Assembly (NCBI GenBank): GCA_017410195.1
Contig: JAFQRF010000032.1
Coordinates: 1-33,281 of the forward strand
From: Clostridia bacterium
GTDB taxonomy: Bacteria; Bacillota; Clostridia; Oscillospirales; Acutalibacteraceae
Direction: 5' to 3'
DNA: 33,281 bases
Shown here piece by piece: positions 3 to 31,709 of this stretch. The first letter of the stretch is position 1. Each line of letters starts with the position of its first letter. The position numbers and the translations under genes were made by a program. Below the pieces are notes generated by a model, which did not search any database, was not told the DNA's origin, and saw nothing but the letters and a program-made list of their open reading frames with translations.

Positions 3-551
3 TACTATGTGCTCACAACATTCTATATCGGCGGCTATGAGCTTCCCGCAGCTGATGAATTCAAGGTTGTATATGACGGCAAAGAAATTCCCTATTATAA
101 TTTCAATTCATATCTGCCCAGCGACAGTGCATATTATCTTTATAAACATGGCGGTAACGGCAAAGCAACGTGTATTATAAGAATCAAACTCGGTGATTTT
201 GAAACTCCCGGAACTGATATCAGCGTTATAAACGGCAAGGCTTCTGCTTCAAATGCGGTTATCGGCAACGTTGTAACAATCACGGCAGATCAGATTGACG
301 GCAAGATTTTTTATTGCTGGAATATCACAGGCGCAACCCCCGAAGATTATTATGATTCCGAAACAACGTTTACAATGGGAGTTTTCAATGTTATTGCAGA
401 AGCGGTTTACAAAGATTGTGAATGCAATTGCCATAAAGGCGGAATTGAAGGATTCTTCTTTAAATTCGTCCTCTTCTTCCAGAAGATTTTTGGTATGAAT
501 ACGGTTTGCGGCTGCCAAATGAACCACAATGTTTTCGGCGATCTCTGGTAA
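3..551 (+). CDS. C-terminal part of a secreted repeat-domain protein with a Cys-bracketed hydrophobic tail (5'-truncated)
   Basis: The reading frame is open to the left edge of the window, so the true start lies outside; the GTG at 9 is probably internal. The visible 180 or so residues contain a segment (about residues 72-135 from the GTG) with the pattern of the bacterial extracellular repeat that reads roughly 'V-NGxA..GxxVTITAD..GKxFxxW..TTFTM..VxAVY', common in clostridial surface proteins. It is followed by a tail of about 45 residues: CECNCH, then an aromatic stretch (GFFFKFVLFFQKIFG), then CGC. The tail resembles the C-terminus of the nucleotidase at 2680-5397. The gene ends just before a strong terminator. 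Its enzymatic or binding role cannot be known from this end; it is probably exported and cell-associated. Confidence 0.75.
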   Translation, partial: YYVLTTFYIGGYELPAADEFKVVYDGKEIPYYNFNSYLPSDSAYYLYKHGGNGKATCIIRIKLGDFETPGTDISVINGKASASNAVIGNVVTITADQIDGKIFYCWNITGATPEDYYDSETTFTMGVFNVIAEAVYKDCECNCHKGGIEGFFFKFVLFFQKIFGMNTVCGCQMNHNVFGDLW

Positions 552-571
552 GATTTAAAATCTCATAACTC

Positions 572-600
572 AAACGGCGGAGCGATCCGCCGTTTTTTTA
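572..600 (+). terminator. Rho-independent terminator of the first gene
   Basis: A perfect 9-bp stem (AAACGGCGG, 572-580, with CCGCCGTTT, 587-595) encloses a 6-base loop and runs into a T tract. It sits 20 bases after the stop codon of the preceding gene. Confidence 0.9.
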
Positions 601-905
601 AAAAATATGCACTATCCGAGCTTCTTTCTCCGATTGATGACCCGAGATATGTTTTAATCGGCACAAAGGGCATCTCCAAGCTCCGGACAACAAATTATGT
701 TCAGAGCTATGCCTGCCCGTCAATTATCGGAGTTAATAAGGAAACAGCTCAAATCCTTGCAAAAAATTTAAAATCTGCAGGCGGTAAATTTGACCTTGTC
801 TTCACAAGAAGTGAACAGGGGAGAAAAGAGCTTTTTAAATGCCGTAAGTTTTCATATATCAACGCAAACAGTAAGCTTGTAAAAACCAAGAAAATTGTAA
901 AATAG
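600..905 (+). pseudogene. Start-less C-terminal fragment, helicase-like
   Basis: An open stretch of about 100 codons ending in TAG at 903-905 has no start codon and begins directly at the T tract of the preceding terminator. It reads LSELLSPIDDPRYVLIG, then a region with YACPSIIG and a basic end (GRKELFKCRK). This pattern resembles the extreme C-terminus of large DEAD/DEAH-type helicase proteins carried by mobile elements, but that is recognition from memory without an alignment. It has no plausible ribosome binding site, so it is a gene remnant left by rearrangement. Confidence 0.5.
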
Positions 906-915
906 TTTTATCAGA

Positions 916-957
916 AACTCAGCACCAAGGTTTACAGCCTTGGTGCTGAGTTATTTA
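916..957 (+). terminator. Strong hairpin after the helicase-like fragment
   Basis: A perfect 15-bp stem (916-930 with 938-952) has a 7-base loop. The T run after it (TTATTT) is weak, so this is either an intrinsic terminator with a poor U tract or a structured repeat. It follows the fragment stop codon by 10 bases. Confidence 0.7.
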
Positions 958-991
958 TCGTCAGTTATGTTGTTTTATCAATGTACAATAA

Positions 992-1294
992 AAATGTGAA
1001 AACTGCGAGTTCAGAGCACAGTGTACAAAAAGTAAGAATACACAGAAGGTCATAAACAGACATATATGGGAAGAATACATAGAACGAGCAGAAGACATAC
1101 GACATTCTCCATTTGGTAAGAAAACGTACTCGATGCGGAGTCAGACAATTGAATGAGTGTTTGCCGATGCCAAAGAAAAACACGGTATGAGGTACACATA
1201 TTACAAACGCTTAAACCAAATCCGAGATGCACGGTTTTTCGACAGTCTGGGAATGAGTCCGGTACAATACCGAACTCATACGTTAACAATTTAA
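992..1294 (+). pseudogene. Eroded transposase remnant (IS1182-type C-terminus, possibly fused to an IS3-type end)
   Basis: Read in one frame, this stretch gives the Cys motif CENCEFRAQCTKSKN, then INRHIWEEYIERA and a C-terminal catalytic region ending in VFADAKEKHGMRYTYY. This is the order seen in IS1182-family DDE transposases (C-x2-C-x5-C motif, then the ETIERVFADAKEKHGMRYT block with the last acidic residue). A TGA stop at 1154-1156 replaces the usual Arg just before VFADAKEKHG. No start or N-terminal half exists. After the KHGMRYT block the frame changes character and ends with GMSPVQYRTHTL, the usual C-terminal pattern of IS3/IS150-type transposases. Two unrelated transposase ends therefore seem joined. 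Not functional. Confidence 0.75.
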
Positions 1295-1303
1295 TATTTA
1301 TTT

Positions 1304-1354
1304 TTGTCTAATCTTTGGGGTTCACTTCAAATTTCAGGGCTCTTTTTATGTGAA
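1304..1354 (+). mobile_element. Relic right end of an IS3-type element
   Basis: The sequence directly after the transposase remnant reads TTGTCTAATCTTTGGGG followed by a TTCAGGGCTCTTT stretch, similar to the right terminal repeat region of IS3-family elements (TGTC..A-CTTTTTGGGG). A partly matching copy lies at 9215-9264. No left end or target duplication was found, so this is a relic. Confidence 0.4.
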
Positions 1355-1391
1355 AAGCTGTTACGGTGTAAGTTTATCTGTAACAGTTTTT
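1354..1391 (+). terminator. Possible weak terminator upstream of the TetR cassette
   Basis: CTGTTAC (1358-1364) pairs with GTAACAG (1380-1386) across a 15-base loop and is followed by five Ts. The stem is only 7 bp, so the call is tentative. It would insulate the TetR promoter from upstream transcription. Confidence 0.35.
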
Positions 1392-1398
1392 AAATTGT

Positions 1399-2141: not shown

Positions 2142-2162
2142 CAGAAAAGTGAGGTGCTTTGA
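1497..2162 (+). CDS. TetR/AcrR-family transcriptional regulator (copy 1)
   Basis: The 221-residue protein has the classical layout: an N-terminal helix-turn-helix at about residues 9-55 (IIRVSTRMFLDYGYSASSV, then KGNYTFYFHSKDDIL, the usual 'GxLYxHFxSKEDL' signature) and a helical ligand/dimer domain of about 160 residues that matches no particular subfamily I know. The ATG at 1497 follows GAGGAGG (1486-1492) at a 4-base spacing. The palindrome over its promoter suggests autorepression. Its stop is one base before the start of the next gene, so it probably co-transcribes with the genes through 9177. The first 160 or so residues are identical to the copy at 11794. Four substitutions follow, then an unrelated C-terminal tip. 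The effector is unknown. Confidence 0.93.
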   Translation: MAKKETTKDKIIRVSTRMFLDYGYSASSVKMVCDELGISKGNYTFYFHSKDDILAVLTDLLCKYQWKMIKEEADDGISSLLALCFELMTMAAACEESEVAKDFFISTYQSPKCLEIIHNNDTARAKEVFAQYCPDWTDEQFREAEILVAGIEHATLNAIDKTIPLETRISGALNAIMTIYNVPEEIRRIKIDKVLAMDYRSIGKRIFNEFKEYVEQKSEVL

Positions 2163-2679: not shown

Positions 2680-5397
2680 ATGAAAAAATTATTGTCAATT
2701 ATTCTTGCCGTTATTATGATTTTATCCGTTATGCCAATAGCTTTTGCGGCAGAAGCAGAAACGGTTATTCTTTACACAAACGATGTTCACTGTGCAATTG
2801 ATGATTATGCTGTGCTTGCCGCTTATAAGGCTCAGCTTGAAGCGGAAGGCAATACGGTTATCACCGTTGATGCGGGCGATGCAATTCATGGAGAGGTTAT
2901 CGGTTCAATAACCGAAGGCGAAGCTATAGTTGATATTATGAACGCTGTCGGCTATGACTACGCCGTTCCCGGTAACCACGAGTTTGACTACGGCATGGAG
3001 GTATTCCTTGACCTTGCACAAAACAAGGCGGAATATGATTATATCAGCTCCAATTTCTATGATCTTACATCCAATTCGCCTGTGCTTAAACCCTATGCTA
3101 TTGAAGATTTCGGGGCTTATCAGATTGCATTTGTGGGTATTTCAACTCCGGATACGGTCACTTCAACAACTCCCGAATATTTCAAGGATGAAAGCGGTAA
3201 TTTTATTTACGGATTTCCTTCTTATCCCGGGGGATTGACAAATGAAGATCTTTATAACAGCATTCAGGAAAGCGTTGACGAAGCGATAAAAGACGGTGCG
3301 GATTATGTCGTTGCGGTAGGCCATGCGGGAATTATCGGTTCAAATGATGGTTGGAAATCGAGCGATATTATTGCAAACACCGACGGCATAGACTGTTTCA
3401 TTGATGCTCATTCCCATGAAATAACGGAAAAAGCAGTCTATAAAAACAAAGATAACGAAGATGTTTTCCTTACATCAACGGGTGCGAAGTTTGCAAACTT
3501 CGGTGTGCTCACAATCAGCGGTGATAACAAAAGCTTTGAACTTGTAAACCCCGATAATGTTGATATTGAAACGATGTCGGCAGACGCAAAATCGGCTTAT
3601 ACTGCCGTCAAGGAAAAGATTGACGATTACAACGAAGATATAGCATATCTTTTTGAAGAAATAGGCAAATCTGAAGCAAATCTTATTATCTATGATTCCG
3701 ATTCGAGCAGAGCTGTAAGAAAGAGAGAAACCAATGCAGGAGATTTTGTTGCCGATGCTTACCGTGCGGTAACAGGCTCTGATGTAGCAATAGCCAACGG
3801 CGGCGGTATCCGTGCAGAGATTGAGGCCGGAAGCGTAACAAGAAAGAGCCTTATGGATGTGAATGCATTCAACAACAATATGTGCGTTCTTGAGGTTACG
3901 GGTCAGCAGATTATTGACATACTTGAGCACGGTGCACGCAAGTGCCCCGAAGAACTCGGCAGCTTTTTCCAGGTTTCGGGTATGTCATTCGAAATCCACA
4001 CATACAGAGAAACTCCCGTTATTACCGATCAGCTTGGTAATTTTGTTGGGGTTGACGAAACAATGGAACGCCGCGTTCAGAATGTCTGCATCGGCGACGA
4101 GCCTGTTGACCTTGACAAGAAGTATACACTCACAGGCAGCACTTATGTGCTTCTTCAGGGCGGTGACGGACTTACAATGCTTGACGGTGCAAGAGTTCTT
4201 CAGCAGGAAGGACTGCCTTGCGATTCCGAAATGCTTATTGAATATTTCGTCGAAACCCTTGAAGGAAAAATAACTGCCGAAAAATACGGCAGCCCTGACG
4301 GTGAAGGCAGAATCAAAATTATCGACAAGAATCCCGATGCTCCCGAAAGTGATTATGAGATTGAATACGGCGATACTCTGACAATTGAAACAGAATCCGC
4401 CGCTGGCGTTTTTGTTAAGTTTGTACCCGAAAAAACAGGTAAATATATTTTCAGAACCGAATCCGACGGGGTTGACACCGGAGCTTGCCTTTATGATGCC
4501 AACGGTGAAGAGCTTTTCGGTGAATATCAGGACGATACAGAAGAAGGTTTTGATTTTAGGCTTGAATATGAGTTTGAAGCAGGCGAAGAGTATTATCTCA
4601 ACATATTTACATATTCCGAAGGCACAGAAACCTTTGAGCTTATTATCGAATGCGGTCATGATTTTGAGGAAGGCAGCTGCATTATCTGCGGTGAGAGATG
4701 TGACCATACAGAAACAGGTTTTCTCGGTTACTGTTTCTGCGGCGAGAATTTCCTTGGAAAAGATATAAATATCGGCAATGAATATGTGCTTGAAAACGAA
4801 GCTGCTTATGAAATTTTCTGGTTCAGATTTACTCCTGACGTAAGCGGATATTATTCCTTCAAATCCGTATCGGAAAACGCTGACCCTGATTGTTCTCTTT
4901 ATTATGCAGATGGCGAATGGCTTGCCGACAGTTATGATGTCAACGGTTTGGATTTTGACCTTGTGTATTACTTTGAAGCAGGCGAAACTTATTATTTCGA
5001 TTTACATAACTGCTATACCGCAGGTGCTTTCAGTGTTAATCTTAACCGCATAGTTCATACCACTGACGATGGCAGCGAGCATAGCATTGAATTCGTTGAG
5101 GGCGTATATTCGAATTGCACGGAGCATGGATATACTGACGGACTATTCTGTAACGATTGTGAAGAATTTATTTACGGTCACGAGGAATTGCCGCTCGATG
5201 AAGGTTATCATATTGATGATGACTATGACGAAATCTGCGACCTTTGCGGTGAAGAAAATATCTATGACGAAGAAATGTGCTCACATATATGCCACAGTGA
5301 CCATTGGTTCTGGAGATTTATCTGGACAATAGGCAACTTTATTCACAGCCTTCTGGGCATCAGTCCCGTTTGCGAATGCGGCGAGGCTCATTATTGA
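2680..5397 (+). CDS. Secreted UshA-type 5'-nucleotidase / metallophosphoesterase with Cys-rich C-terminal region
   Basis: This 905-residue exported enzyme is likely to hydrolyse nucleotides or related phosphoesters outside the cell. A signal peptide (residues 1-23, ending AFA) leads into a calcineurin-type metallophosphatase domain with metal ligands D35 and H37 (TNDVH), D67 (DAGD), N99-H100 (GNHEFD) and H244/H246 (DAHSH). The 5'-nucleotidase C-terminal domain follows, with the substrate-loop motif NGGGIR at about 373-378 and GGDGLTML later. Beyond residue 550 come two PPC-like beta domains (each containing FEAGE..YY), CxxC zinc-ribbon-like segments including CDLC (853-856), and a tail with CSHICH, an aromatic stretch and CECGEAHY. 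Typical UshA proteins are about 550 residues, so the last 350 are an accessory surface region. Ribosome binding site AAGGTG at 2667-2672. It lies 33 bases after the previous gene with no terminator. Confidence 0.93.
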   Translation: MKKLLSIILAVIMILSVMPIAFAAEAETVILYTNDVHCAIDDYAVLAAYKAQLEAEGNTVITVDAGDAIHGEVIGSITEGEAIVDIMNAVGYDYAVPGNHEFDYGMEVFLDLAQNKAEYDYISSNFYDLTSNSPVLKPYAIEDFGAYQIAFVGISTPDTVTSTTPEYFKDESGNFIYGFPSYPGGLTNEDLYNSIQESVDEAIKDGADYVVAVGHAGIIGSNDGWKSSDIIANTDGIDCFIDAHSHEITEKAVYKNKDNEDVFLTSTGAKFANFGVLTISGDNKSFELVNPDNVDIETMSADAKSAYTAVKEKIDDYNEDIAYLFEEIGKSEANLIIYDSDSSRAVRKRETNAGDFVADAYRAVTGSDVAIANGGGIRAEIEAGSVTRKSLMDVNAFNNNMCVLEVTGQQIIDILEHGARKCPEELGSFFQVSGMSFEIHTYRETPVITDQLGNFVGVDETMERRVQNVCIGDEPVDLDKKYTLTGSTYVLLQGGDGLTMLDGARVLQQEGLPCDSEMLIEYFVETLEGKITAEKYGSPDGEGRIKIIDKNPDAPESDYEIEYGDTLTIETESAAGVFVKFVPEKTGKYIFRTESDGVDTGACLYDANGEELFGEYQDDTEEGFDFRLEYEFEAGEEYYLNIFTYSEGTETFELIIECGHDFEEGSCIICGERCDHTETGFLGYCFCGENFLGKDINIGNEYVLENEAAYEIFWFRFTPDVSGYYSFKSVSENADPDCSLYYADGEWLADSYDVNGLDFDLVYYFEAGETYYFDLHNCYTAGAFSVNLNRIVHTTDDGSEHSIEFVEGVYSNCTEHGYTDGLFCNDCEEFIYGHEELPLDEGYHIDDDYDEICDLCGEENIYDEEMCSHICHSDHWFWRFIWTIGNFIHSLLGISPVCECGEAHY

Positions 5398-5431
5398 TTT
5401 AACTGAATTGTATTTGAAAAATGGAGGTTTT

Positions 5432-7144
5432 ATGAACGGCATTACCATTATGATAATCTCTCTTGCCGTTTTGCTTTTTGCATATATTTTGTACGGCAGG
5501 TGGATTGCCAAAAAATGGGGAGTAGACCCAAAAAGAAAAACTCCCGCTTATGAACAACGTGACGGCGTTGACTATGAGCCTGCGCCCAAGAGCGTTGTTT
5601 TCGGTCATCAGTTCGCTTCAATTGCAGGAGCAGGTCCGATAAACGGTCCGATTCAGGCGGCGATATTCGGATGGGTGCCTGTGCTATTATGGGTGCTTAT
5701 CGGCGGTGTTTTTTTCGGAGCAGTTCAGGATTTTGCAGCAATGTATGCTTCTGTCAGAAACAAAGGCAGAAGTATCGGCTACATAATTGAAAAATATATC
5801 GGCAAAACAGGAAAAAAGATGTTCCTGCTTTTCTGCTGGCTTTTCTGCATCCTTGTTGTTGCAGCATTTGCCGATATAGTGGCAGGCACTTTTATGGGCT
5901 TTACCGTAACCGACGGTATTCAGAGTGCAAACATAACGGCAAACGGTTCCGTAGCAACTACATCGGTGATGTTTATCATGTTTGCGGTTGTTCTCGGTCT
6001 TATTCTCAAATATGCCAAATTGCCGACAGCCGCAAATACCGCTGTTGCAATTGTAATGCTTGTTGCATCAATAATCATCGGTCTGAAATTTCCTATGTTT
6101 CTTTCTCTTGATGTATGGCACATTTTTGTTTTTGTTTATATTTTTATTGCATCCGTTGTGCCTGTATGGATTCTTTTGCAGCCGAGAGATTATCTCAACA
6201 GCTATCTGCTTGTTGTAATGATAGTTGCGGCAGTTATTGGCGTGTTTGTTGCAAATCCTCAGATTAATCTGCCTGCATTTGTGGGATTTGAGGTTGACGG
6301 CAGCTATCTTTTTCCCATCCTTTTTGTTACTATTGCCTGTGGTGCTGTTTCGGGCTTTCATTCATTGGTTTCTTCGGGTACGGCATCAAAGCAGATTAAG
6401 AACGAAAAAGATATGCTTCCCGTATCTTTCGGCTCAATGCTTCTTGAAAGTATGCTTGCCGTAATCGCTCTCATTGCGGTTGCTTCTTTTGCAAGCGGTG
6501 AAGCGGCTGCACAGGGCTGGAATACTCCCGCACAGGTTTTTGCAGGTGCAGTTTCGGGATTCCTTACAACTCTCGGTTTACCCTCTGATATAGTTTATAC
6601 TCTTATCACTCTTTCAATTTCTGCCTTTGCGCTGACTTCCCTTGACTCTGTTGCCCGTGTCGGCAGACTGTCGTTCCAGGAGCTTTTTCTTGACGATTCT
6701 ATAACCGATGAAAACATGGGTAAGGTCAGAAAGGTGCTTACAAATAAGTATTTTGCGACAATTATTACCCTTGTGCTTGCATACGCTCTTACTCTTGTGG
6801 GCTATAAAAACATCTGGGCACTTTTTGGCGCATCAAATCAGCTTTTGTCTGTATTTGCGTTTCTTGCATGTGCGGTGTTCCTCAAGAGGAGTAAAAAGGT
6901 AAGATGGTTTATGTATATTCCTCTCGGCGCAATGCTTGCCGTAACCTTCACAGCTTTGGGTATGACGGTTTACAACAAGGCAACGGCACTGCTTATGTCT
7001 TCAAGCACAGACATTTTCGGCGATGTACTTCAGCTTGTGTTTGCAACGCTGATTATAATTCTTGGTGTCTGCGTTGTGATTGAAGGTTTCAGAAAGCTTT
7101 TCAAAAAAGGCGGCATAGAAATAAAAAGTGAGGTAAGTGTATGA
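5432..7144 (+). CDS. cstA: CstA-family carbon starvation transporter (peptide/pyruvate type)
   Basis: The 570-residue polytopic membrane protein has many hydrophobic segments and the CstA hallmark HQFASIAGAGPINGP near residues 59-73. A second conserved region (FHSLVSSGTASKQ) and the C-terminal five-helix part end with a basic cytoplasmic tail. CstA/BtsT proteins of E. coli take up peptides or pyruvate; the substrate here is not fixed by sequence. ATG 5432 is chosen because GGAGG (5423-5427) precedes it; an in-frame TTG at 5408 has no such site. It follows the nucleotidase by 34 bases and its TGA overlaps the ATG of the next gene (ATGA), a sign of translational coupling. It lies in the TetR-headed gene run. 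Confidence 0.95.
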   Translation: MNGITIMIISLAVLLFAYILYGRWIAKKWGVDPKRKTPAYEQRDGVDYEPAPKSVVFGHQFASIAGAGPINGPIQAAIFGWVPVLLWVLIGGVFFGAVQDFAAMYASVRNKGRSIGYIIEKYIGKTGKKMFLLFCWLFCILVVAAFADIVAGTFMGFTVTDGIQSANITANGSVATTSVMFIMFAVVLGLILKYAKLPTAANTAVAIVMLVASIIIGLKFPMFLSLDVWHIFVFVYIFIASVVPVWILLQPRDYLNSYLLVVMIVAAVIGVFVANPQINLPAFVGFEVDGSYLFPILFVTIACGAVSGFHSLVSSGTASKQIKNEKDMLPVSFGSMLLESMLAVIALIAVASFASGEAAAQGWNTPAQVFAGAVSGFLTTLGLPSDIVYTLITLSISAFALTSLDSVARVGRLSFQELFLDDSITDENMGKVRKVLTNKYFATIITLVLAYALTLVGYKNIWALFGASNQLLSVFAFLACAVFLKRSKKVRWFMYIPLGAMLAVTFTALGMTVYNKATALLMSSSTDIFGDVLQLVFATLIIILGVCVVIEGFRKLFKKGGIEIKSEVSV

Positions 7145-9307: not shown

Positions 9308-10384
9308 ATGTTCAGAAAAAGTATAGTTTTTTTACTTGTTTTAACTATGCTGTTTGGCTTGCCGTCAGTCGCATATGCCGAAGAATGTGTTTCCGAAAAG
9401 GAAGGTTATGTGCTTGATTTCAGCACCGAATTTAATGATGGTAATTTAAATACAGAGTATTGGTTACCGCAGTATCTGCCTCACTGTAGTGCCAATACAG
9501 AAGGCTCCTCTGCAAGGTATAAAGTCGAGAACGGTTATCTGAATTTGTATATCACAAAGGATTCACCTGATTATTTCGGCGGTCAGCCCGGTTCTGTAGA
9601 CCCTGATAACCTTCTATGGATAGCTAACGGTATTCAGACTTGGGAAAAGAACAATCTTCATCCCGGCGGTGCTCAACAGAACCAAGTTGAGCCTTATGAA
9701 GGATATGCAACACAGTATGGCTATTTTGAAATACGTATGAAAATGCCTGATACCGGCGGTGGCGGATACGCTTCATGGTGGCTTATAGGCACTCAGGATG
9801 ATGCAGCTCCTGACGGAACAGGTTCTGTTCAGAATGGCGAAATAGATGTCTTGGAAACCTTTTTTAAATCTCCAGGAGTGTTTGAGCCTAAAGTTCATGC
9901 TTGGAATGATCCCAATCTTGACGAATGGGCAAGCAGGGTCGAATTGGATGGCGACCCAAGCGACTATGTTAATGAATTTCACACCTATGCTATGGACTGG
10001 AGACCCGAAGGAATAACATTTTATGTTGACGGAAAAGAAGTGGCGCAGACGAGGGAATCACCGCAATACAGAATGTGTATGATTTTGTCTATGTATATAA
10101 ATTCTGATTTCAGCGGTTGGGATGAGCCTGAAAATAATTATCCTATAGAATGGCTGATTGATTATGTGCGTGTCTATAAAGATAAAAACGGTTATGACGA
10201 GAGCAACCGCCTTACTGAGTTTGAGCGTTTTATAAAAGATATGTGCGACTCGCTGACTGTATTCGGGCAGCGTATATTATCATTTTTTCAACACCTCTGT
10301 ATGCAGTGCCGGCAGTTCTTTGAGCGTATATTCAGTAAAATTCCTGTTATGTACAGAACAACAAATTCCAATTTGTTGAGTTGA
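9308..10384 (+). CDS. Secreted GH16-family endo-beta-glucanase (laminarinase/lichenase type)
   Basis: The 358-residue protein has a signal peptide (residues 1-24, ending AYA) and a glycoside hydrolase family 16 beta-jelly-roll domain at about 35-295. The catalytic motif is EIDVLE, with E178 as nucleophile, D180 as helper and E183 as acid/base. Flanking family features are YGYFEIRMKMPDT before it and FHTYAMDWRPEGITFYVDGK after it. Members cut beta-1,3- or mixed-linked beta-glucans, galactans or related chains; the subfamily cannot be fixed by eye. The last 55 residues (from FERFIKDMCDSL) form an amphipathic, aromatic stretch with three Cys, longer than needed for the fold. It may hold the enzyme at the envelope. 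The ATG at 9308 follows GAAGGATG. Confidence 0.93.
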   Translation: MFRKSIVFLLVLTMLFGLPSVAYAEECVSEKEGYVLDFSTEFNDGNLNTEYWLPQYLPHCSANTEGSSARYKVENGYLNLYITKDSPDYFGGQPGSVDPDNLLWIANGIQTWEKNNLHPGGAQQNQVEPYEGYATQYGYFEIRMKMPDTGGGGYASWWLIGTQDDAAPDGTGSVQNGEIDVLETFFKSPGVFEPKVHAWNDPNLDEWASRVELDGDPSDYVNEFHTYAMDWRPEGITFYVDGKEVAQTRESPQYRMCMILSMYINSDFSGWDEPENNYPIEWLIDYVRVYKDKNGYDESNRLTEFERFIKDMCDSLTVFGQRILSFFQHLCMQCRQFFERIFSKIPVMYRTTNSNLLS

Positions 10385-11696: not shown

Positions 11697-12438
11697 CAAT
11701 GCAGCAAATTTTTTAAAAACATATTGACATTTATTCGTACTCGTGCTAAATTATGTATAGTACGAGTGCGAATATTGCTTTTGAGGAGGCTCTATGGCGA
11801 AGAAAGAAACGACAAAAGATAAAATAATCCGAGTTTCAACCCGAATGTTTCTTGATTACGGATATTCGGCATCAAGCGTAAAAATGGTCTGCGATGAACT
11901 CGGAATAAGCAAGGGCAACTACACATTTTATTTTCACTCGAAGGACGACATTCTTGCGGTGCTCACGGATTTGCTGTGCAAATATCAGTGGAAGATGATA
12001 AAGGAAGAAGCGGATGACGGAATCAGTTCGCTGCTGGCTCTTTGCTTTGAGCTGATGACAATGGCGGCGGCTTGCGAAGAAAGCGAGGTTGCAAAGGACT
12101 TTTTTATTTCGACTTATCAAAGCCCGAAATGCCTTGAGATTATCCACAACAACGACACCGCCCGTGCAAAAGAGGTTTTTGCTCAGTATTGTCCCGATTG
12201 GACAGACGAGCAGTTCAGAGAAGCTGAAATTCTTGTTGCAGGCATTGAACACGCAACTCTGAATGCCATTGATAAAACCGTGCCGCTTGAAACACGTATT
12301 TCGGGAGCGTTGAATACCATTATGACTATTTACAACGTGCCCGAAGAAATCCGAAAGATAAAGATTGATAAGGTTCTTTCAATGGATTACCGTTCAATCG
12401 GCAAACGCATTTTTAACGAGTTTAAGGAATATGTTGAA
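11697..12438 (+). repeat. Copy 2 of the duplicated promoter-operator-TetR cassette
   Basis: Direct repeat of 1399-2141, in the same orientation about 10.3 kb away. Identity runs from 97 bases upstream of the start codon to codon 215. Most differences are third-position changes. Downstream this copy abuts palindromic repeats and a giant surface protein instead of the nucleotidase-cstA run. Confidence 0.9.
11724..11772 (+). promoter_or_regulatory. TetR promoter with overlapping palindromic operator (copy 2)
   Basis: TTGACA (11724-11729), 17 bases, TAAATT (11747-11752). The 14-base arms at 11734-11747 and 11759-11772 have exactly the sequence of copy 1. Conservation of every operator base while silent sites in the gene have drifted suggests both copies still use the same site. 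Confidence 0.85.
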
Positions 12439-12456
12439 AAGGCGAATGCTTTTTAA
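11794..12456 (+). CDS. TetR/AcrR-family transcriptional regulator (copy 2)
   Basis: The 220-residue paralogue of the protein at 1497 has an identical helix-turn-helix and identical residues up to about 160. It then differs by conservative changes (I to V, A to T, R to K, A to S) and ends differently (EYVEKANAF instead of EYVEQKSEVL). The ribosome binding site GAGGAGG and 4-base spacing are kept. With the same DNA-binding domain and the same operator, the two proteins should cross-regulate and could form mixed dimers. The next gene downstream, after 362 bases of repeats, is the giant surface protein at 12819, a possible target. No terminator is obvious directly after it, apart from the palindromic repeats themselves. 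Confidence 0.93.
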   Translation: MAKKETTKDKIIRVSTRMFLDYGYSASSVKMVCDELGISKGNYTFYFHSKDDILAVLTDLLCKYQWKMIKEEADDGISSLLALCFELMTMAAACEESEVAKDFFISTYQSPKCLEIIHNNDTARAKEVFAQYCPDWTDEQFREAEILVAGIEHATLNAIDKTVPLETRISGALNTIMTIYNVPEEIRKIKIDKVLSMDYRSIGKRIFNEFKEYVEKANAF

Positions 12457-18800: not shown

Positions 18801-19367
18801 GAAATGATTAAGGACATCGAAGGTCTTGAAGATAAGATTGAAGAAATCGAAACACAGCTTGAAAGAATCGCAGGTATTGAAAACGCCTACAACCCCGAAA
18901 CCGTAACAAGCGATGATAAGTCAGCTATCGAAAACGCTATTGCTGAAATCGAAGCTGTAAATCCCGACAATCTTACCGACGAGCAAAGGAAAGAATATGA
19001 AGAAATCAAGGCAGGCTTCGAAGCTCTCCTTGACAGAATTTCAGCGGCTACGCTTCAGGTTGATGCGGTAGGCGAGGTGCTCGCAACATTTGATGCTGAC
19101 CGTGTAACAATCTTCTGGGAAGATGATATTGAAGCTCTCAAAACAAAGATTGACGAAATCCTTGCAGACGAGAACATGGGCGAAGCAGAAAAGGCAAAGC
19201 TTAATGAATACAAGGCAGAATGTGATAATCTCATCGTGATTATCCACACACCCGTTGAATATTTCTCACTCCGTCTGTTCTATTTTATCTGGGATCTCAT
19301 TCTTTGGATATGGAACAGCGTAGTCAACGTCTTCTCAGGCCTCTTTGGCATTCAGGCAATCGCATAA
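12819..19367 (+). CDS. Giant secreted multidomain surface protein / adhesin-like (2182 residues)
   Basis: An export signal (residues 1-27, ending AFA) is followed by a GLUG-like beta-helix region at about 35-240 (NPFTGIFNGNGYTISGL). A short segment with DSDSACDFCG (Cys347, Cys350) comes next. Two related pectate-lyase-like beta-helix modules start near 458 and 717 (both containing YKTFADAITAAQ and LDLNGKTLLNETG). Then come an MBG-type Ig domain near 1015 (VYNGQHQAPAVTVTIGGK), an Ig-like domain near 1251, and four MBG/YDG repeats between about 1461 and 1810 (IYDGKPV, VYDGTTD). A helical coiled-coil-like region of three to four repeats of about 80 residues (1815-2143) and a strongly aromatic tail (2147-2182: FYFIWDLILWIWNSVVNVF) finish it. 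There is no catalytic signature; adhesion or a scaffold is the likely role. No LPXTG. AAAGGAGG precedes the ATG. TetR copy 2 lies upstream. Confidence 0.9.
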   Translation: MKKTNKLISILIAVAMLLSMAPISAFAAAAPPTVEIGGKTYYEIDSADDLDWFAAQVNSGNTAINASLTKNITYNSGTMSASTTGARVWTPVGTRDNPFTGIFNGNGYTISGLYCKDPEDSPYLSLVAHSVKAIIANVAVTNFYFESRYGLVAGIASYAAGSTITNCYAQGSIYAKDAGAAAAGICAAVFGHSRTEILNCLADVALKVDDPSDFTVSGLSVRNYIGGIICTGDKDNPVLIQKTIYITDRYNGAVYDSDYALASHFEIYDSEGMPASKLSTGEIAYALGNGWGQKLGTDPMPVILSAYKVNYGYISCDVDAEKVYTNSAINLNYPWHYDSETDSDSACDFCGINLHTHSFEYTASGDTITAVCENTDGNCPDSVGTLTILAPADLYTDGTTAKEATIENNLVDTSVAISDITYSAPYGLPPKDAGNYTASVTVGGATATVEFTLLNYAAKVTDKDGNAVGTYKTFADAITAAQDNEGSTLTLLDNITLTSTQIIYSGKFTLDLNGKTLLNETGVTLQINKEANVTVKNSGEGGTVKTGGTNTPAISNLGTLTVDAGNIIGKKQAVNSSGTLTVNGGKFEAEYSLYISSGETVIEDGEFNGIVCVFASCTVNGGDFTAPRISINYEDGILTVNGGTFDIDEIRILAGTVSLAGGEFTNGFVLKSENTEDTLNSFLAEGYKFYDADGNKMTVADDATVINGYVKVKEHIVASVTVNNGGVEEVSYYKTFADAITAAQGSEGSTVTLLDDITLTTRQAISSGTFTLDLNGKTLLNETGGVLYIYEEVDLTIKDSGEGGTVETKRMYVDCIDNSGKLTVESGVIKGDGGIRNHGVLYFNDGTVEADNYPAIANYNDSTVYVYDGVLKGGKNSGAVENGGTLYVYGGEIESILNANDAYISGGKIDRDDYVALNLLGGTVEITGGSFTGTDFSDGYFSGTPYGEWTVDINEGATLILKGGEFPNGFVVANTTANAFLAEDYYYKDADGKLIDVAEDAKIINGYVKVSKGADLSDAVITVDKTEFVYNGQHQAPAVTVTIGGKTLTENVDYVVNARRWENGVPVQWFYYVDAGVYTSVIDGLGDYTGKVEKEFVIKPATVDIIWEGDEFYYTGNPHKVTAKYIDIDGNESNEFELINYVNTDVGVYTATAIFADNNYSATEAALNHTYEIKWYDGAPDAEIGGIKGENGWYIRPVIVTAPDGYVIDTLVDGTYGNTITFVENEENAVYYLKQTENGYIAKVELGEIKFDFENPTAEITVGENKWNSFLNTVTFGKFFKKTQSVTIEASDKTSGLAKIEYFIATEEITDFENIEWIEYTEKFNIEPNSKNIIYAKATDKAGRTIIINSDGIVLYTDSTLNVEDKDEVIYVLTKNADQAFNLNLNGNTVAYIKIDESVLGAEDYEVLGNMVLVSAEVLENLEAGEYIITVGFNPMGQVYVEGDAPAEVTIPLTVKKADVTIEISDIGKIYDGKPVTAEYKISKSSDSSPAVSNIKYNETVEFKVKGADNSTYTTEAPVNAGEYTVRITVAQTDKISYAQVTADFTIEKKAVTVTATAPDKVYDGTTDILEYSKVIVKIDGAVEGEMLGFTVGKAWYDTSDAGIDKTVHIIYAPVASNNIDNYEFPMNPEYSTDNCYVAAKADITKKAVSVSATVPDRIYGESVNCDTTKVVITFDGIVEGDDVGYVVTDATYYMHTVTDNAPVQVVYNVNGADSGNYQFPEFGEYLPPEYGVQATGRVLPRDIANAEITLGDALVYNGAEQTQTVAAVTVDGLEVTYTVSGNKAINVGVYELTITGNGNFAGETTALYEIAPDTTGVDVLTVDNVKSSDKEAIEAVAQQIENAVTDLADDEKKAEYKVITDKCDELLSKINDTANEIERIDEAVNGYDKETVTSADIPELSKLIDDIKALTDGDNLTEDEKAALEETDKAIDELIEKLAKVAEEIKKADEAVKSYDEETVKSTDSEDLAQLKEDIQALIDSDNTTENEKTALEEMIKDIEGLEDKIEEIETQLERIAGIENAYNPETVTSDDKSAIENAIAEIEAVNPDNLTDEQRKEYEEIKAGFEALLDRISAATLQVDAVGEVLATFDADRVTIFWEDDIEALKTKIDEILADENMGEAEKAKLNEYKAECDNLIVIIHTPVEYFSLRLFYFIWDLILWIWNSVVNVFSGLFGIQAIA

Positions 19368-21336: not shown

Positions 21337-23307
21337 ATGTTTTCGAAAATAGTTTCTGTACTTATTTGCATATCAATGATGATTTCCTGTATGAGCATTG
21401 CGTCGTATGCTGTTGACGGTGAAAGCCTTCGGGTGCCGTTTATTATAAATAAATTTGAAGAAATATCGGGAATGTTTATCAGCGTTATTGCGGGACTTTT
21501 TAACAAGAACAATTCAGAAGCCGATATACCGTCTGCAACCGTCAATCCTCATTCGTGGGTTGAATATGACGGCAATCCGATTGAAAATCCCGAACAGACG
21601 TTGAATGCCCAAACGTGGGTTGCAAATGAAATTACATTTGAGAGTGAAAAGTCATATACCAATCCGTTTGGTGACGTTGATGTTGAACTTCTTCTCTGGA
21701 GTAACGGCAGGCTTTATAAAATTCCCGGCTTCTGGGACGGTGATAATATTTGGAAAATCCGTTTTGCTTGTCCGTCAGCAGGGGAGTGGTATTATAAAAC
21801 TGTCTGTACAGATGGGGAAAACACATCAATTAACGGCAGAACGGGTAAGGTTATCTGCTCGGAATACAGCGGCGAACACGATATTTATAAGCACGGTTTC
21901 ATCACAACAAATGCAGGTGAAAAATATTTTACCTATGATGACGGAACACCGTTTTTCTGGCTCGGCGATACTCATTGGAGTCTCGGTGATGAAACGGTTG
22001 ATATGGTTAAAACAATATGCGAAAAGCGTGTTTCTCAGGGCTTTACCGTATATCAAAGCGAGCCTATCGGTGCAAAGTTTGATTTCACAAACGGCATAAC
22101 ACAAGAGGATATGGCGGGTCTTGCAGACTATGACGAGAAGTTTGCGATAATTGCTGAGAATGGTCTTGTTCATGCAAATGCACAGTTTTTCTTCTCCTAT
22201 TTTATCGAGCCTCTGATTTCAAACAACGGCGGTTTCAACGGCAGCGAGCCTTCAGATTCAGCAAAAGCTTACCTTGAAAAAGCCTGCCGTTACTGGGTTG
22301 CAAGATACGGCGCATATCCCGTTGTATGGACACTCGGTCAAGAGGTAGATAACGATTTCTATTGGAGCGAAACAAATCATCCCGAATGGGGATTGGATAA
22401 CAACCCCTACAAGCTCGTTGCGGAATATATTGCAAAATACGATGCTTATGACCATCCTCTTTCAGCTCATATGGAAAACGTTGGCTCAACATCTGTTTAC
22501 GGCAACGGCGAAGGTGCAACGGATGAATGTAAGGTTTATTTTAAAGATGCTGCGCCTTCTGCCTTCAGAGATATAAAGTCGCATAATTTCTATGCCGTTC
22601 AATGGCATACTTCAAAAACGGAGCAAAGCGATTTCCGTATTGAAAAAGACTGCTGGTATAATTCTCAGGGCAAGCCTGCAATCAATTACGAGGGACAGTA
22701 CTGCTATTTGTGGACTAAAAATTTCGGCTCAAGAATGCAGGGCTGGACAGCGTATCTCAACGGTATGTACGGCTACGGCTGGGGCGGTCACGATACGTGG
22801 AGCTATTTGAATATTTACGATGAAGAAAATGACAGCTCCGACGGTGTCGACACAATAACAAGCGAAGAAAAAATCAACGCAACGTGGCAGGATTCACTCG
22901 AATATGAAAGCTCGTATCAGGTCGGATATATGCGTGAATTCTTTGAACAAACGCAGTGGTATAATCTTATTCCGAGATTTGATAACAAGGCATATTTCGT
23001 TCCCGCAAGCAATGTTTACTATGTATATGCCGGCAACGAAGATAACACCGAAATTGTTGTTTACTTCTATTCATTCACCGATAATTCCGTTGCACAGAAG
23101 GCCAATACAAAGTATTACGGCGGAATCAAGACGGGTACGGTCGGTAGACTTATTCCCAACGAAAGCTATACATATCAATGGTTTGACCCGATAAGCGGTG
23201 AATACTCCGAAGAATACGAATTTACCGCCACGAGATTCGGCACGTATTATATCGGCGACAGACCGCAGGCAACCGATATGGTTTTGCTCATGCGTGTCAG
23301 CGAATAG
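21337..23307 (+). CDS. Secreted DUF5060/DUF4038 glycoside hydrolase (GH140-like)
   Basis: The 656-residue exported protein has a signal peptide (1-27, ending SYA), a 40-residue hydrophobic/amphipathic segment (KFEEISGMFISVIAGLF), a DUF5060 beta domain (about 75-170; NPFGDVDVELLLWSNGR, WKIRFACPSAGEWYY) and a DUF4038 (beta/alpha)8 domain. In the barrel, WTLGQEVDND (E336) and INYEGQYCY (E452) are at the positions expected for acid/base and nucleophile. DUF4038 proteins include the apiosidases of family GH140, which act on pectic side chains. The substrate here is a guess, since the superfamily also contains other activities. AAGGTG precedes the ATG. The GH110-like gene follows by 78 bases with no terminator, so they are probably co-expressed. 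Confidence 0.87.
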   Translation: MFSKIVSVLICISMMISCMSIASYAVDGESLRVPFIINKFEEISGMFISVIAGLFNKNNSEADIPSATVNPHSWVEYDGNPIENPEQTLNAQTWVANEITFESEKSYTNPFGDVDVELLLWSNGRLYKIPGFWDGDNIWKIRFACPSAGEWYYKTVCTDGENTSINGRTGKVICSEYSGEHDIYKHGFITTNAGEKYFTYDDGTPFFWLGDTHWSLGDETVDMVKTICEKRVSQGFTVYQSEPIGAKFDFTNGITQEDMAGLADYDEKFAIIAENGLVHANAQFFFSYFIEPLISNNGGFNGSEPSDSAKAYLEKACRYWVARYGAYPVVWTLGQEVDNDFYWSETNHPEWGLDNNPYKLVAEYIAKYDAYDHPLSAHMENVGSTSVYGNGEGATDECKVYFKDAAPSAFRDIKSHNFYAVQWHTSKTEQSDFRIEKDCWYNSQGKPAINYEGQYCYLWTKNFGSRMQGWTAYLNGMYGYGWGGHDTWSYLNIYDEENDSSDGVDTITSEEKINATWQDSLEYESSYQVGYMREFFEQTQWYNLIPRFDNKAYFVPASNVYYVYAGNEDNTEIVVYFYSFTDNSVAQKANTKYYGGIKTGTVGRLIPNESYTYQWFDPISGEYSEEYEFTATRFGTYYIGDRPQATDMVLLMRVSE

Positions 23308-29278: not shown

Positions 29279-29309
29279 TGGTCTGACCTCCTGTCAAAAT
29301 ATTTTTCAG

Positions 29310-29338
29310 ATTATATTATACTATTGCCGAAAAAATGA
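29310..29338 (-). promoter_or_regulatory. Possible internal promoter of the zinc-ribbon/lipoprotein genes
   Basis: On the minus strand two overlapping TATAAT boxes (29315-29320 and 29310-29315) precede the ATG at 29278. TTCATT lies 18 bases before the second. The elements overlap the stop codon of the LRR-dockerin gene, so the three downstream genes may be expressed apart from it. Confidence 0.45.
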
Positions 29339-31709
29339 ACGACAATATTTTTTTGATAAACTCAAATATGCTTGTGATTATTGCTTCAATGCCGGTTACG
29401 GAGCTGTCGGCACCGTCCCCTTCGTTATCATTCTCGGTTGTGCCGTCTGCTTCGGGGCTGATGTCAGCCTCAACGCTTTGGTCAATAAGACCCATATACT
29501 CGATATAGAAGGCGTTTTCCTCAAGCTCCTCGGGTGTTCCGTTCTGGTTGACCCTGTTGAGCAGGAGGCCTGCGCCCGTGAGCAAATCAACGTCCAGCTC
29601 GTTAATTATGCCGTCGTGGTTGCAGTCGGCAGCTCTCCACGCATATTCTGAAACATCGTTGCTGCTGAGCATACCGTTTACGATAAGATTTACAAGGAAC
29701 GCATCGTTGCCGTCGTACCAGCCGTCGCCGTCAACGTCGCCGTAGATGAGAACGGTGTATTCCTGAACGGCTTCATTTTCGTTCATAAGTATGGCTTTTG
29801 AGCCCGTGCCAAGCTTTGAATACGGCATTTCATAAGTCCACGTATGATTAAATTTAACAATGCTTGTAATTTCATCAAAGGAAGCGAGACCCGGGTTGAG
29901 ACCCGTAACTGTATAGGTGAGGAAGTCGATTATCATACTCTCGTCCCACTCAAAGCCCGTTGCCTCTATTCTTTCGCCCTTGACACTGCCGCAGTAAATA
30001 CAGCTGCCCTCTTTTACACCGCGTGCGGTTGCGGTAGGCATTTTTGTAATTCTGTTCATTACGTGCTTGTGTTCACCCGTTTTTTCGAGCATTTCTGCTT
30101 CTTCATCGCCGCAGACGGTACAGATATAATAGCGTTTGCCGTTAGAGCCACAGGTAGGCGGTACTTCGGGCATATTGGGGTCAACGATATAGTTATGCAG
30201 AAGCTCAGAGTAAGACATACCGCAGGAGCAGGAGTAAGCCTTTTCGCCGTGCTGTGTTTCGGTGGGCTCAATGTCGGTTATCAGCTCGTAGGTGTGTCCG
30301 CCGTTTTCAGCCTGACTGAGGAAGTTATAAGTAACCCCGTCAAGGTTTTGCAGTTCATTATCGTAAATGAGCATCCAGTCGTGCTCCGAGCCGTTATAAG
30401 TCACGTTTTTAAGCGAAGCACAATTGCCAAACGCATCCGTCTCTGTTCCGATTGTTGTAACAGTTGTGGGAATTACGACAGTTTCAAGCATTTTACAGCT
30501 GTAAAATGCATCGCCTTGGATTTTTTCAACACCTTCGGGAAGAATTACGGTTTTGAGATTCTCATTGTATGAAAAAGCATTTTTAGCAATTGTCTCAGTT
30601 GCCTCATTAACGGTATAGCTTTCCCGAACCGATGCTACCGGATAAGATTTAAGTGCAGCAAAAGATGCAGTATAAAGAATACCGTACTCATCAGAAACGT
30701 AATTCGTGTTGCCTTCTTCAACTATAATCTCTGTCAGCGAAGAACAACTCTTGAAACTGCAAACAATACTTGTGACGCTTGCGGGAATCGTCAGACTTGT
30801 AAGTGATTCGCAATCGTCAAACGCAAACAGTTCAATGGTTCTGAGATTAGCAGAAAGCTTTATATTTTCAAGCAATTTACAGCCACGGAATGCCGCGTTA
30901 TCTATATGTGTAACGCTGTCGGGAAGAACTATACTTTCGATTGCCGTTTTTTCGAATGCGCAGCCACCGATAGTAGTAACGGTATCAGGTAAGTTAACGT
31001 TTTTGAGAGAGGTACATCTGTAAAATGACGTACTGCTGACATTTTTAACACCTTCTTCGATTGTAACCGTCACAATTTCATCACGAAAATCAGTCCAAGG
31101 AGCAGGGTTTGATGTGGTATAATAGGACATAGTACCTGTACCGCTGACTGTGAACTCACCCGTTACGCCGTTAAAGCGCCAGGTGGCATTGCTGCCGGTA
31201 GTGCCACTCTTGCCTGCACAGATAACCTCGGGGGTTGAGTCGGGGAACTGAACGTCAAGAGCGTCCCATTCCTCCTGCGTGCCCGTAAAGGTTACGGTTG
31301 CGAGTGAGTAACAATCTCCAAATGCGGAACTGCTGACTTCAGCGAGGCTGTAGGGAAGCACTACTTCCCTTAAAGCAGTACCCTTGAAAGCATAATCAGC
31401 CACGGTGGTGACACCCTCTTCAATAACAACGGATGTGATAAGTTCTGCGTAAGAGTACCACGGAGTTTCACTTGCGGCGGTGTAATCGGTCATAGCACCC
31501 TCACCGCTGATGGTGAGCACGCCCGTTTCGGTGTCAAAGCCCCAGCTTATATTGCCGTTTTCGCCCAGGGTGCCCGAAGCCGTTTCGGCGCTTGCGGTAA
31601 AGCTGAACAGCGGCGGCAGCTCAAGACCGGCAAAGCCGCTCAGAGGTGCGGCGGCAAGCACCATTACGACCACCATAAATATTGCAAAAAGTTTTTTTAG
31701 CTTTTTCAT
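29316..31709 (-). CDS. Secreted leucine-rich-repeat (BspA-type) surface protein with dockerin and hydrophobic tail
   Basis: The 797-residue exported protein has a signal peptide in the first 45 residues and Gly-rich modules with ISGEGAMTDYT and VSGTGTMSYYT (a clostridial surface repeat, twice). A BspA-type LRR region runs from about 60 to 440 (IVLPDSVTHIDNAAFRGC and similar). Two Cys-rich segments follow (SCSCGMSY, ICTVCGDEE, SCIYCG), then a dockerin-I-like pair of EF-hand-like loops at about 657-715 (DVDGDGWYDGND and DCNHDGIINELD). A tail at 770-797 (SIFEFIKKILSFIFSAIV) ends it. LRR and dockerin suggest adhesion and possible docking to a cohesin scaffold; no cohesin is in the window. It follows the LuxR gene by 28 bases on the same strand, so the regulator and this protein are likely one transcript. 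A GAAAGGATG site precedes the ATG. Confidence 0.9.
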   Translation of the reverse strand: MKKLKKLFAIFMVVVMVLAAAPLSGFAGLELPPLFSFTASAETASGTLGENGNISWGFDTETGVLTISGEGAMTDYTAASETPWYSYAELITSVVIEEGVTTVADYAFKGTALREVVLPYSLAEVSSSAFGDCYSLATVTFTGTQEEWDALDVQFPDSTPEVICAGKSGTTGSNATWRFNGVTGEFTVSGTGTMSYYTTSNPAPWTDFRDEIVTVTIEEGVKNVSSTSFYRCTSLKNVNLPDTVTTIGGCAFEKTAIESIVLPDSVTHIDNAAFRGCKLLENIKLSANLRTIELFAFDDCESLTSLTIPASVTSIVCSFKSCSSLTEIIVEEGNTNYVSDEYGILYTASFAALKSYPVASVRESYTVNEATETIAKNAFSYNENLKTVILPEGVEKIQGDAFYSCKMLETVVIPTTVTTIGTETDAFGNCASLKNVTYNGSEHDWMLIYDNELQNLDGVTYNFLSQAENGGHTYELITDIEPTETQHGEKAYSCSCGMSYSELLHNYIVDPNMPEVPPTCGSNGKRYYICTVCGDEEAEMLEKTGEHKHVMNRITKMPTATARGVKEGSCIYCGSVKGERIEATGFEWDESMIIDFLTYTVTGLNPGLASFDEITSIVKFNHTWTYEMPYSKLGTGSKAILMNENEAVQEYTVLIYGDVDGDGWYDGNDAFLVNLIVNGMLSSNDVSEYAWRAADCNHDGIINELDVDLLTGAGLLLNRVNQNGTPEELEENAFYIEYMGLIDQSVEADISPEADGTTENDNEGDGADSSVTGIEAIITSIFEFIKKILSFIFSAIV

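Follow-up and report, generated by a model that had tools for sequence, protein, structure and literature searches.

A module of about 40 residues, which we call the type A tail, sits at the extreme C-terminus of proteins of unrelated function and is homologous across them. It reads C-x-[CH]-x-C-H, a cationic aromatic amphipathic helix, C-x-C-G-x-x-H-[YW] and then the stop. Two proteins encoded in the window, the whole stretch of 33,281 nucleotides that was analyzed, carry it. We put the chances at about even that type A is an interchangeable C-terminal address tag that would retain exported proteins at the envelope in one family of gut Clostridia. In uncultured gut Clostridia without a sortase motif or an SLH domain, surface anchoring is hard to infer from sequence. 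A tag that predicted surface display would allow sequence-only assignment of many proteins, up to 16 matches of type A and up to 36 of a relative, type B, per genome. As a small cassette, the tail is open to testing.

The tail in the window

The relevant features are as follows.

3..551, + strand: carrier gene that lacks its 5' part because the contig starts here; InlB-like repeat match below threshold
417..548, + strand: type A tail of gene 3-551; C-x-C-x-C-H, helix GFFFKFVLFFQKIFG, then CGC...H
2680..5397, + strand: carrier, exported 5'-nucleotidase-like protein of 905 aa; Metallophos, 5_nucleotid_C; signal peptide
5209..5250, + strand: H-x-D-x-D...C-x-x-C-G repeat shortly before the nucleotidase tail
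5278..5394, + strand: type A tail of the nucleotidase-like protein; C-x-H-x-C-H, helix, CECGEAHY, then stop
10271..10333, + strand: GH16 protein, amphipathic aromatic C-terminus; core-B E 0.33, membership not demonstrated
19278..19346, + strand: hydrophobic aromatic end of the 2182-aa giant protein; no profile match
29319..29372, - strand: LRR-dockerin protein, hydrophobic C-terminus; matched by no profile and without recurrence in 60 genomes

Profile A2 scored both window tails strongly, with E 3.7e-16 for gene 3-551 and E 2.4e-17 for the nucleotidase. A 93-tail profile that excluded the nucleotidase cluster and all C.H.CHS tails gave the nucleotidase tail E 2.3e-16, and an 85-tail profile that excluded all GFFF/GFFY/FFF tails gave the tail of gene 3-551 E 5.9e-13. 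Each was thus recovered by a profile built without its own kin, and the two are one homologous tail. Their alignment contains conserved Cys/His columns, in line with the Cys brackets that the sequence-only reading had seen in both. In gene 3-551, a short extension follows the tail; the gene's homologues within the genus, 265 aa long, bear both a signal peptide and the type A tail. Beyond the window, the host genome encodes three more type A-tailed proteins, two on contig C3 and one on contig C58, where a second tailed copy of the nucleotidase (L002) is located.

The sequence-only reading had proposed one tail for five exported proteins. All five C-terminal stretches are present at the genes it named, and alignment beyond hydrophobicity stands for gene 3-551 and the nucleotidase; for the GH16, giant and LRR-dockerin proteins a common tail fell away, as far as tested. 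The three remaining ends were scored with the helix-core profiles of types A and B, and the giant and LRR-dockerin ends gave no match at E 10. The 120 bases downstream of the giant protein's stop contain no CxCG relic. Used as a query against 60 genomes, the LRR-dockerin tail matched itself and one 68-aa frame (E 0.024). By sequence comparison, these three tails are not demonstrably related to type A, and for them a reading as ordinary inheritance or chance stands. The five-protein tail thus becomes two proteins with one tail and three hydrophobic or amphipathic ends, so the earlier observation is partly confirmed, for the shared tail in a stronger form than it was given, and the earlier interpretation is partly supported. 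That reading had also set tests of its own, namely whether the tail occurs on cytosolic proteins and whether it aligns beyond chance hydrophobicity.

Of 250 genomes in the host's family, at least 16 have type A; samples drawn from the phylum and the order showed it in the host only. These searches scored 24-30 candidates per genome, so absences in them are not proofs. Among these candidates, type A matches numbered 15 in genome G563 and 16 in genome G600. Type B reached 36 matches in one genome. A permissive search returned weak, partial or stop-broken matches in five genomes of other families (G062, G080, G087, G088 and G089; E 0.009-0.099), and neither weak match recurred at E 0.01 when G062 and G080 were searched again. 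The scan with a closer alignment, A4, reaches nearer relatives only. Viral contigs gave 195 pattern matches, none confirmed, and plasmids gave no match.

Carriers, export and exchange

Fetched loci held type A on 120 distinct frames, defined by the motif C.[CH].CH...C.{1,2}CG..H, which was chosen after the tails were seen, with orthologues included. Profile matches that fail this motif were left out of the 120: gene 3-551, C-terminal variants L259-L263, the partial matches L264 and L265, and L269, a frame of 65 aa. All 120 frames end 0-13 residues past the motif, and in 110 the stop comes 0 or 1 residue after it. A motif like the H-x-D-x-D...C-x-x-C-G repeat of the nucleotidase lies at most 60 residues before the tail in 45/120.

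The great majority of type A carriers have a Sec-type N-terminus. Among carriers with a closed 5' end, 88/96 passed a signal-peptide heuristic, which is our own and not SignalP, scans 150 start positions in carriers (80 in the host sample) and cannot tell N-terminal anchors apart from signal peptides. Beyond these 88, L138 and L208 have a visible signal peptide that scores slightly below threshold. The other six (L008, L075, L076, L183, L185 and L187) have no signal peptide in the available sequence, and they start mid-protein or lie near a contig end. Counted within the 88 is L093 (= L272), which has a charged non-aromatic helix and a membrane-anchor-like N-terminus.

Among the host proteins sampled, the tail occurs on exported and not on cytosolic ones. 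A host sample of 20 stretches (about 296 kb) held 29 exported soluble proteins, 133 without signal or transmembrane segment, and 57 transmembrane proteins. Type A or B tails ended 5/29 of the exported soluble proteins versus 0/190 of the others (0/133 and 0/57; Fisher p 3e-5), and a tail on cytosolic proteins, which would have refuted the sequence-only reading, was not seen. The first profile counts included the sample's own tails; they were repeated without host sequences, and the same five proteins were recovered. These profile counts took the place of a crude count of hydrophobic or aromatic C-ends (5/29 exported, 3/57 transmembrane, 2/133 neither), which missed type B and flagged chance ends. 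Shuffled tails reached E 0.01 in at most 2/2400 cases.

The proteins in front of the tail vary. Matches to 32 Pfam families were found in 64 carriers, with some families represented by one protein. LRR_5 occurs in 25 carriers and InlB-like repeats in 8, and CotH, rhamnosidase, GH3, subtilase, transglutaminase and C-type lectin in 1-2 carriers each. When carriers were aligned jointly, the invariant columns all fell within the tail. Single-linkage clustering of the 120 gave 20 clusters, the largest of 84, with 12 singletons, some of them fragments.

The tail has been exchanged between unrelated genes at least once, and this is visible in the DNA. Over the 300 bases that precede the tail, the 265-aa orthologues share 91-98% identity. 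In two of them, L009 and L008, the tail shares just 77-80% identity with the tails of the remaining orthologues but 88-93% with those of unrelated 389-602-aa proteins. These two tails are 98% identical to each other, so their swap may be one event. Type A is also constrained at the amino-acid level, with paralogues in G563 and G600 using different codons at 36% and 47% of identical residues.

The helix and the Cys/His clusters

The middle part of the tail has the alpha-helical periodicity and segregated polar face of an in-plane amphipathic anchor. Its helical moment peaks at 100 degrees (0.54), and 112/120 helix cores exceed z 1 against their own shuffles. Mean charge is +2.5, with the polar positions confined to a single face of 80 degrees. 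The best 19-residue Kyte-Doolittle mean is 1.1, with 3/120 above 1.6, so the helix is not a classic membrane span. Phe is present at -6 in 107/120 and Ile at -14 in 103/120; this is more sequence-specific than simple membrane binding needs and favors a specific partner or tight packing.

From their sequences, the flanking Cys/His clusters most likely bind metal, probably zinc. This step derives from one substitution pattern, the exchange of Cys (70/120) and His (50/120) at the third ligand position. Three distinct variant tails (L259 = L260, L261 and L262) carry CC and a nearby Asp in place of CxCGxxH. If the tail binds metal outside the cell, its design would also be unusual among exported tags.

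Type B is a Cys-less relative of type A and ends at least 14 host proteins. The two share a core over 21 columns (hhalign probability 95.5), and a type B profile from other genomes matched both contig C3 type A tails at E 5e-4. The helix is all that type B has in common with type A, and this suggests that the helix is the functional part.

No known family accounted for the tail in Pfam, NCBIfam or PDB sequences. Pfam gave no match for the two type A tails searched, no NCBIfam CTERM tag model matched, and the type A tail alone hit only ZPR1_znf in NCBIfam, at E 0.37. Profile A5 matched nothing among PDB sequences at E 10, and a recognizable zinc-knuckle-like family was set aside on the Pfam and PDB results. 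A literature search returned no description of such a tail. No partner enzyme or receptor was found, as neighbor families recur in at most 7/44 loci. Sortase matches were present in 20/20 type A-positive and 10/10 type A-negative genomes chosen, so sortase does not track the tail. SLH domains were found in 6/20 positive versus 4/10 negative genomes and were absent from the host genome, which sets SLH/S-layer anchoring aside. A linked sortase or other partner was likewise rejected, with no conserved neighbor and no co-distribution. The absence of LPXTG reported for the window tails extends to the carriers, where strict LPxTG occurs in 1/120 (last 120 residues, inside a repeat) and the looser [LINS]Px[TS]G in 13/120, mostly in IPATGH-type repeats. 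Sortase substrates of the LPXTG kind were rejected on these grounds.

Proposed envelope retention and comparison with known systems

The tail probably keeps its carriers at the cell surface. After export, the middle part would form the cationic aromatic amphipathic helix, which may lie in the outer-leaflet interface of the membrane or fit into a groove on a partner in the envelope. Adhesins, nucleotidases and glycosidases would thereby be kept at the cell instead of being lost, with the clusters C-x-[CH]-x-C-H and C-x-C-G-x-x-H, if they hold metal, clamping both ends. This reading as a retention tag draws on position, export, modularity, swapping, protein-level constraint, the helix, the Cys/His pattern at the third ligand and the core shared by types A and B. 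Counted against it are the lack of a dedicated partner, the specific helix, the CC-variant tails, L093, the six carriers without a signal peptide and the chance that the swap in L009 and L008 was one event. A broader proposal, held tentatively and with less confidence than the tag itself, is a new C-terminal targeting system. In it, metal-clamped type A tails and their Cys-less sister, type B, would pass between genes as cassettes, and a single cell could use them to direct adhesins and enzymes, up to dozens in number, to one specific receptor in the envelope or patch of membrane.

The tail could instead be a processing signal, as in PEP-, GlyGly- and MYXO-CTERM, cut by an intramembrane or sortase-like protease that moves the carrier to lipid or wall, perhaps via the first Cys. 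The placement logic is the same, at the extreme C-terminus of unrelated exported proteins and with 15 and 16 matches in G563 and G600, and a conserved Cys precedes the hydrophobic helix as it does in MYXO-CTERM in the cited description (PMC11980579). However, type A has no uninterrupted hydrophobic helix, no basic end and no linked enzyme, sortase presence does not follow it, and the CxCGxxH after the helix is among its most conserved residues rather than disposable. We consider this explanation unlikely. An equally doubtful alternative is a small folded domain of helix and Cys/His clusters that plugs into a surface or complex receptor, dockerin-like and without membrane contact. The sequence-specific helix, the swapping between carriers and the 15-16 matches in some genomes suit it, but there is no receptor candidate, the host already has a known docking system (3 dockerin matches), and one of these, L218, ends in the dockerin without the tail.

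Outward action, in which the cationic aromatic helix binds membranes of other cells or of the host or is released as a membrane-active peptide, is very improbable. Net charge and the high moment would fit, but the phenol-soluble modulin model that one type B tail matched did so at chance level (E 0.81, 9.5 bits, cut-off 33) and carries no weight, a conserved cleavage site was not noticed, and the carriers include nucleotidases and glycosidases without an evident lytic role. Functionless hydrophobic C-termini inherited among paralogues of one surface-protein family, or arising by chance, find some room in the 84-member cluster and in three of the five original tails being simply hydrophobic or amphipathic as far as tested, but for types A and B the 20 clusters with varied Pfam content, the tail swapping, the synonymous codon divergence and the shuffles already make this unlikely, and we give it hardly any weight.

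The retention tag can be set beside several known C-terminal modules. Dockerin type I (Pfam PF00404) and the T9SS C-terminal domains are, like type A, carried at the C-terminus of varied secreted enzymes and adhesins; type A differs in its length of about 40 residues and in having no Pfam match. Like the LPXTG cell-wall sorting signal (PMC5817068), type A is a C-terminal tag on monoderm surface proteins, but it lacks the LPXTG motif, the positive end and the co-distribution with sortase. PEP-CTERM and GlyGly-CTERM (PMC1569441, PMC3237569) are C-terminal sorting tags that were also first recognized as short homology domains; type A differs in having no NCBIfam tag match and no tripartite layout, and with 3/120 above the Kyte-Doolittle value of 1.6 it was rejected as a CTERM tripartite signal. 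MYXO-CTERM, the tag of the myxosortase system (PMC11980579), has a transmembrane helix and an Arg-rich cytoplasmic end and is cut by a CPBP protease. The two agree in being short homology tags that form the extreme C-terminus of many exported proteins and in placing an invariant Cys ahead of a hydrophobic helix, whereas the type A helix is amphipathic, Cys/His clusters flank it on both sides and no enzyme is assigned to it. Noc (PMC4331003) is an example of the in-plane anchors, in which an amphipathic helix is proposed to keep its protein on the membrane, as we propose for type A. Noc is a cytoplasmic DNA-binding protein, whereas the type A helix is bracketed by Cys/His clusters and sits on exported proteins.

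Tails of the window and their kin

The host assembly comprises 2.36 Mb in 88 contigs, the window being contig C25. A sequence-only reading had assigned one aromatic C-terminal tail, a possible surface-retention signal, to five window proteins. All five C-terminal stretches were located in the window, and a common tail held for two:

3-551, gene with a type A tail
2680-5397, 5'-nucleotidase-like gene with a type A tail

The type A tail runs for about 40 residues: C-x-[CH]-x-C-H, an aromatic helix, C-x-C-G-x-x-H-[YW] and the stop. With profiles built without each tail's own kin, E was 2e-16 for the nucleotidase tail and 6e-13 for that of gene 3-551. The nucleotidase tail, used alone as query, found a second nucleotidase on host contig C58, its tail 69% identical (E 6e-18). 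A second query, the tail of gene 3-551 with its ending exchanged, returned two more proteins on host contig C3 and many in the genus. For GH16, the giant protein and the LRR-dockerin protein, no evidence of kinship was obtained. The GH16 tail reached E 0.33 against a helix-core profile from type B, the Cys-less relative of type A; the giant and LRR-dockerin tails had no helix-core profile match at E 10, and the latter was not recurrent among the 60 genomes searched. These three tails are hydrophobic or amphipathic C-termini whose role may be similar.

Contig C58 holds a diverged second copy of window 2680-7144 (loci L002 and L038), with the nucleotidase and, after it, a transporter gene judged by eye to be CstA-like. 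This copy in the same assembly represents either a paralogous operon or a strain mixture. At locus L108, a 503-aa nucleotidase-like protein (1060-2569) adjoins a tail gene and lacks both the tail and an evident signal peptide, in contrast to the exported tailed nucleotidase. Two further features were observed in the window:

1497-2162 and 11794-12456, a pair of regulators judged by eye to be TetR-like, 9.6 kb apart and about 95% identical over their first 640 bases
21433-21510, aromatic amphipathic stretch VPFIINKFEEISGMFISVIAGLFNKN of the apiosidase-like protein (21337-23307), just past the signal peptide and thus at the N-terminus rather than the C-terminus

Motif, carriers and export

The type A profile, built from 16 rows, is invariant in a Cys, three residues of which the middle is Cys or His, C-H, then some 24 residues later C-x(1,2)-C, and last a His; Gly follows the last Cys in 15 of the 16 rows. 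Searching the fetched loci for open reading frames with C.[CH].CH.{8,34}C.{1,2}CG..H yielded 120 distinct carriers, i.e., proteins ending in the tail. The distance from motif to stop is 0 residues in 28 of them, 1 in 82, 3 in 2, 6 in 1, 7 in 6 and 13 in 1. At the third ligand position 70 carriers have Cys and 50 have His, a swap that a metal site could tolerate but a disulphide probably would not. Within the 60 residues ahead of the tail, 45/120 carriers have an H-x-D...C-x-x-C repeat; those of the window nucleotidase (5209-5250) had no Pfam match.

Some tails depart from the motif. Loci L259 (tail same as L260), L261 and L262 retain the helix and CxCxCH, but their C-terminal CxCGxxH gives way to CC and, one or two residues on, an Asp. 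L263 ends in C-x-x-C-E and matches the profile without the motif, as do two partial tails and one 65-aa frame (L264, L265, L269). In the protein L093/L272 (G515:C10), 419 aa long and anchor-like at its N-terminus, the Cys/His brackets surround a charged, non-aromatic helix; this natural variant could show which tail part is important.

Type A carriers are unrelated to each other. Clustering the 120 without their tails gave 20 groups. One has 84 members, seven have 2-7 each, and 12 are singletons, some of which are fragments. From 76 non-redundant closed carriers, 63 were aligned together with the window nucleotidase, leaving out nine for size plus L008, L075, L076 and L138. All seven invariant columns of this 64-member alignment lie inside the tail. 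These members matched 32 Pfam families at E 1e-4, several from one protein. Among the 25 families listed were LRR_5 (25 members), LRR_8 (16), InlB-like repeats (8), alpha-2-macroglobulin (3), CotH, 5'-nucleotidase and C-type lectin (2 each), and rhamnosidase, GH3, subtilase and transglutaminase (1 each).

Tail exchange was examined by comparing 15 carriers. In a 265-aa orthologous group, the 300 bases ahead of the tail are 91-98% identical. The tails of its members in genomes G006 and G008 are 77-80% identical to those of the remaining orthologues and 88-93% identical to those of unrelated 389-602-aa proteins, whose DNA upstream of the tail is at background identity (28-33%). We read this pattern as replacement of a tail cassette, perhaps in a single event, since the G006 and G008 tails are 98% identical. 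Where tail residues are identical, the codons differ in 36% of comparisons in G563 (14 copies, 25 equal-length pairs) and 47% in G600 (16 copies, 81 pairs). Tail similarity is therefore kept by protein-level selection, not recent copying.

Of 96 carriers with the frame closed upstream, 88 passed a signal-peptide heuristic, including L093, which resembles an N-terminal anchor. L138 and L208 have a visible signal just under the threshold. No signal peptide was seen in L008, L075, L076, L183, L185 and L187, where a crude upstream look found no alternative start. The expectation that the tail is confined to exported proteins was borne out in a host sample made up of contigs C1-C20, each taken up to 20 kb from its start (~296 kb, 219 genes called). 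Tails ended 5/29 proteins with a signal peptide and no other transmembrane segment, 0/133 with neither and 0/57 transmembrane proteins (Fisher p 3e-5). They were two type A tails on C3 and type B tails on C3, C10 and C20; host-free profiles returned the identical five and none further at E 0.01, a threshold reached by at most 2/2400 shuffled tails. Extreme C-terminal position, exported carriers, unrelated bodies and cassette exchange together make the pattern expected of an address tag.

Predicted helix and the Cys-less relative

Counting back from CxC, at least 93% of the 120 tails are hydrophobic at each of the positions -18 to -6, save -15, -12 and -8, mostly polar, and -9, mixed. On a helical wheel the polar positions, including -19 and -5, fall at 220-300 degrees. 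The hydrophobic moment is highest at 100 degrees per residue (0.54, vs 0.40 at 90 and 0.46 at 110), and 112/120 cores exceed z = 1 against their own shuffles. Mean core charge is +2.5, and the 19-residue Kyte-Doolittle mean reaches 1.6 in only 3/120. The predicted helix thus looks amphipathic rather than membrane-spanning. Phe at -6 (107/120), Ile at -14 (103/120), Phe at -10 (98/120) and Phe at -11 (95/120) indicate residue-specific conservation, beyond the need of membrane binding alone.

Type B tails have the type A core; hhalign of the two profiles gave a probability of 95.5 over 21 columns, and a type B profile built on non-host genomes matched the two type A tails on C3 (E 5e-4). The match ends 0-12 residues from the C-terminus in 24/24 type B proteins read. 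Of these, 22 passed the signal-peptide heuristic, another narrowly missed it with a visible signal, and the last showed no signal; in the host, 14/14 passed, these being the ones read of 17 matches. The region ahead of the tail looks Ig-like: one of two tested regions matched Big_9 at E 0.004, below the cut-off, and the other matched nothing. Because the helix is common to both types, it would be what does the work, with the Cys/His clusters added as a clamp.

Proposed envelope retention, distribution and known systems

Full-length type A tails (E < 1e-12) occur in 18/37 genomes of the genus and 0/23 of other families, and type B tails (E 1e-3) in 36/37 and 0/23, respectively. Across the family, type A was found in 16/250 genomes and 9/135 genera, and type B (E 1e-5) in 12/250 genomes. 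Samples of the phylum (299 genomes) and order (295) returned type A in the host itself only; in a permissive search, five genomes from other families yielded weak, partial hits. Named relatives (44 loci) belong to assemblies of Clostridia and Oscillospiraceae, many of ruminant-gut origin. No type A tail was confirmed in the viral contigs or plasmids searched.

We favour envelope retention, to which we give about an even chance: the amphipathic helix would hold the carrier at the envelope, with the Cys/His clusters acting as a metal clamp. The main rivals, a receptor-docking module and a cut-and-attach signal, each appear unlikely. Sortase matches occur in 30/30 genomes tested, irrespective of the tail. 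SLH was found in 10/30 genomes tested but was absent from the host, and the commonest neighbour family occupies no more than 7/44 loci around tail genes. On this basis, no partner can be named.

The tail had no Pfam match, no NCBIfam tag model and no match among PDB sequences. No description of it or of six tail peptides was found in the literature covered, which takes in few subscription papers and preprints. The nearest kind is the tripartite CTERM tags (PMC11980579, PMC1569441, PMC3237569); LPXTG signals (PMC5817068) were compared as well. The defining features tested were a transmembrane helix and a curated model for the former, and the LPXTG motif and tracking with sortase for the latter. 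Since the type A tail does not show these features of either, we file it as a C-terminal tag of exported proteins belonging to no named family.
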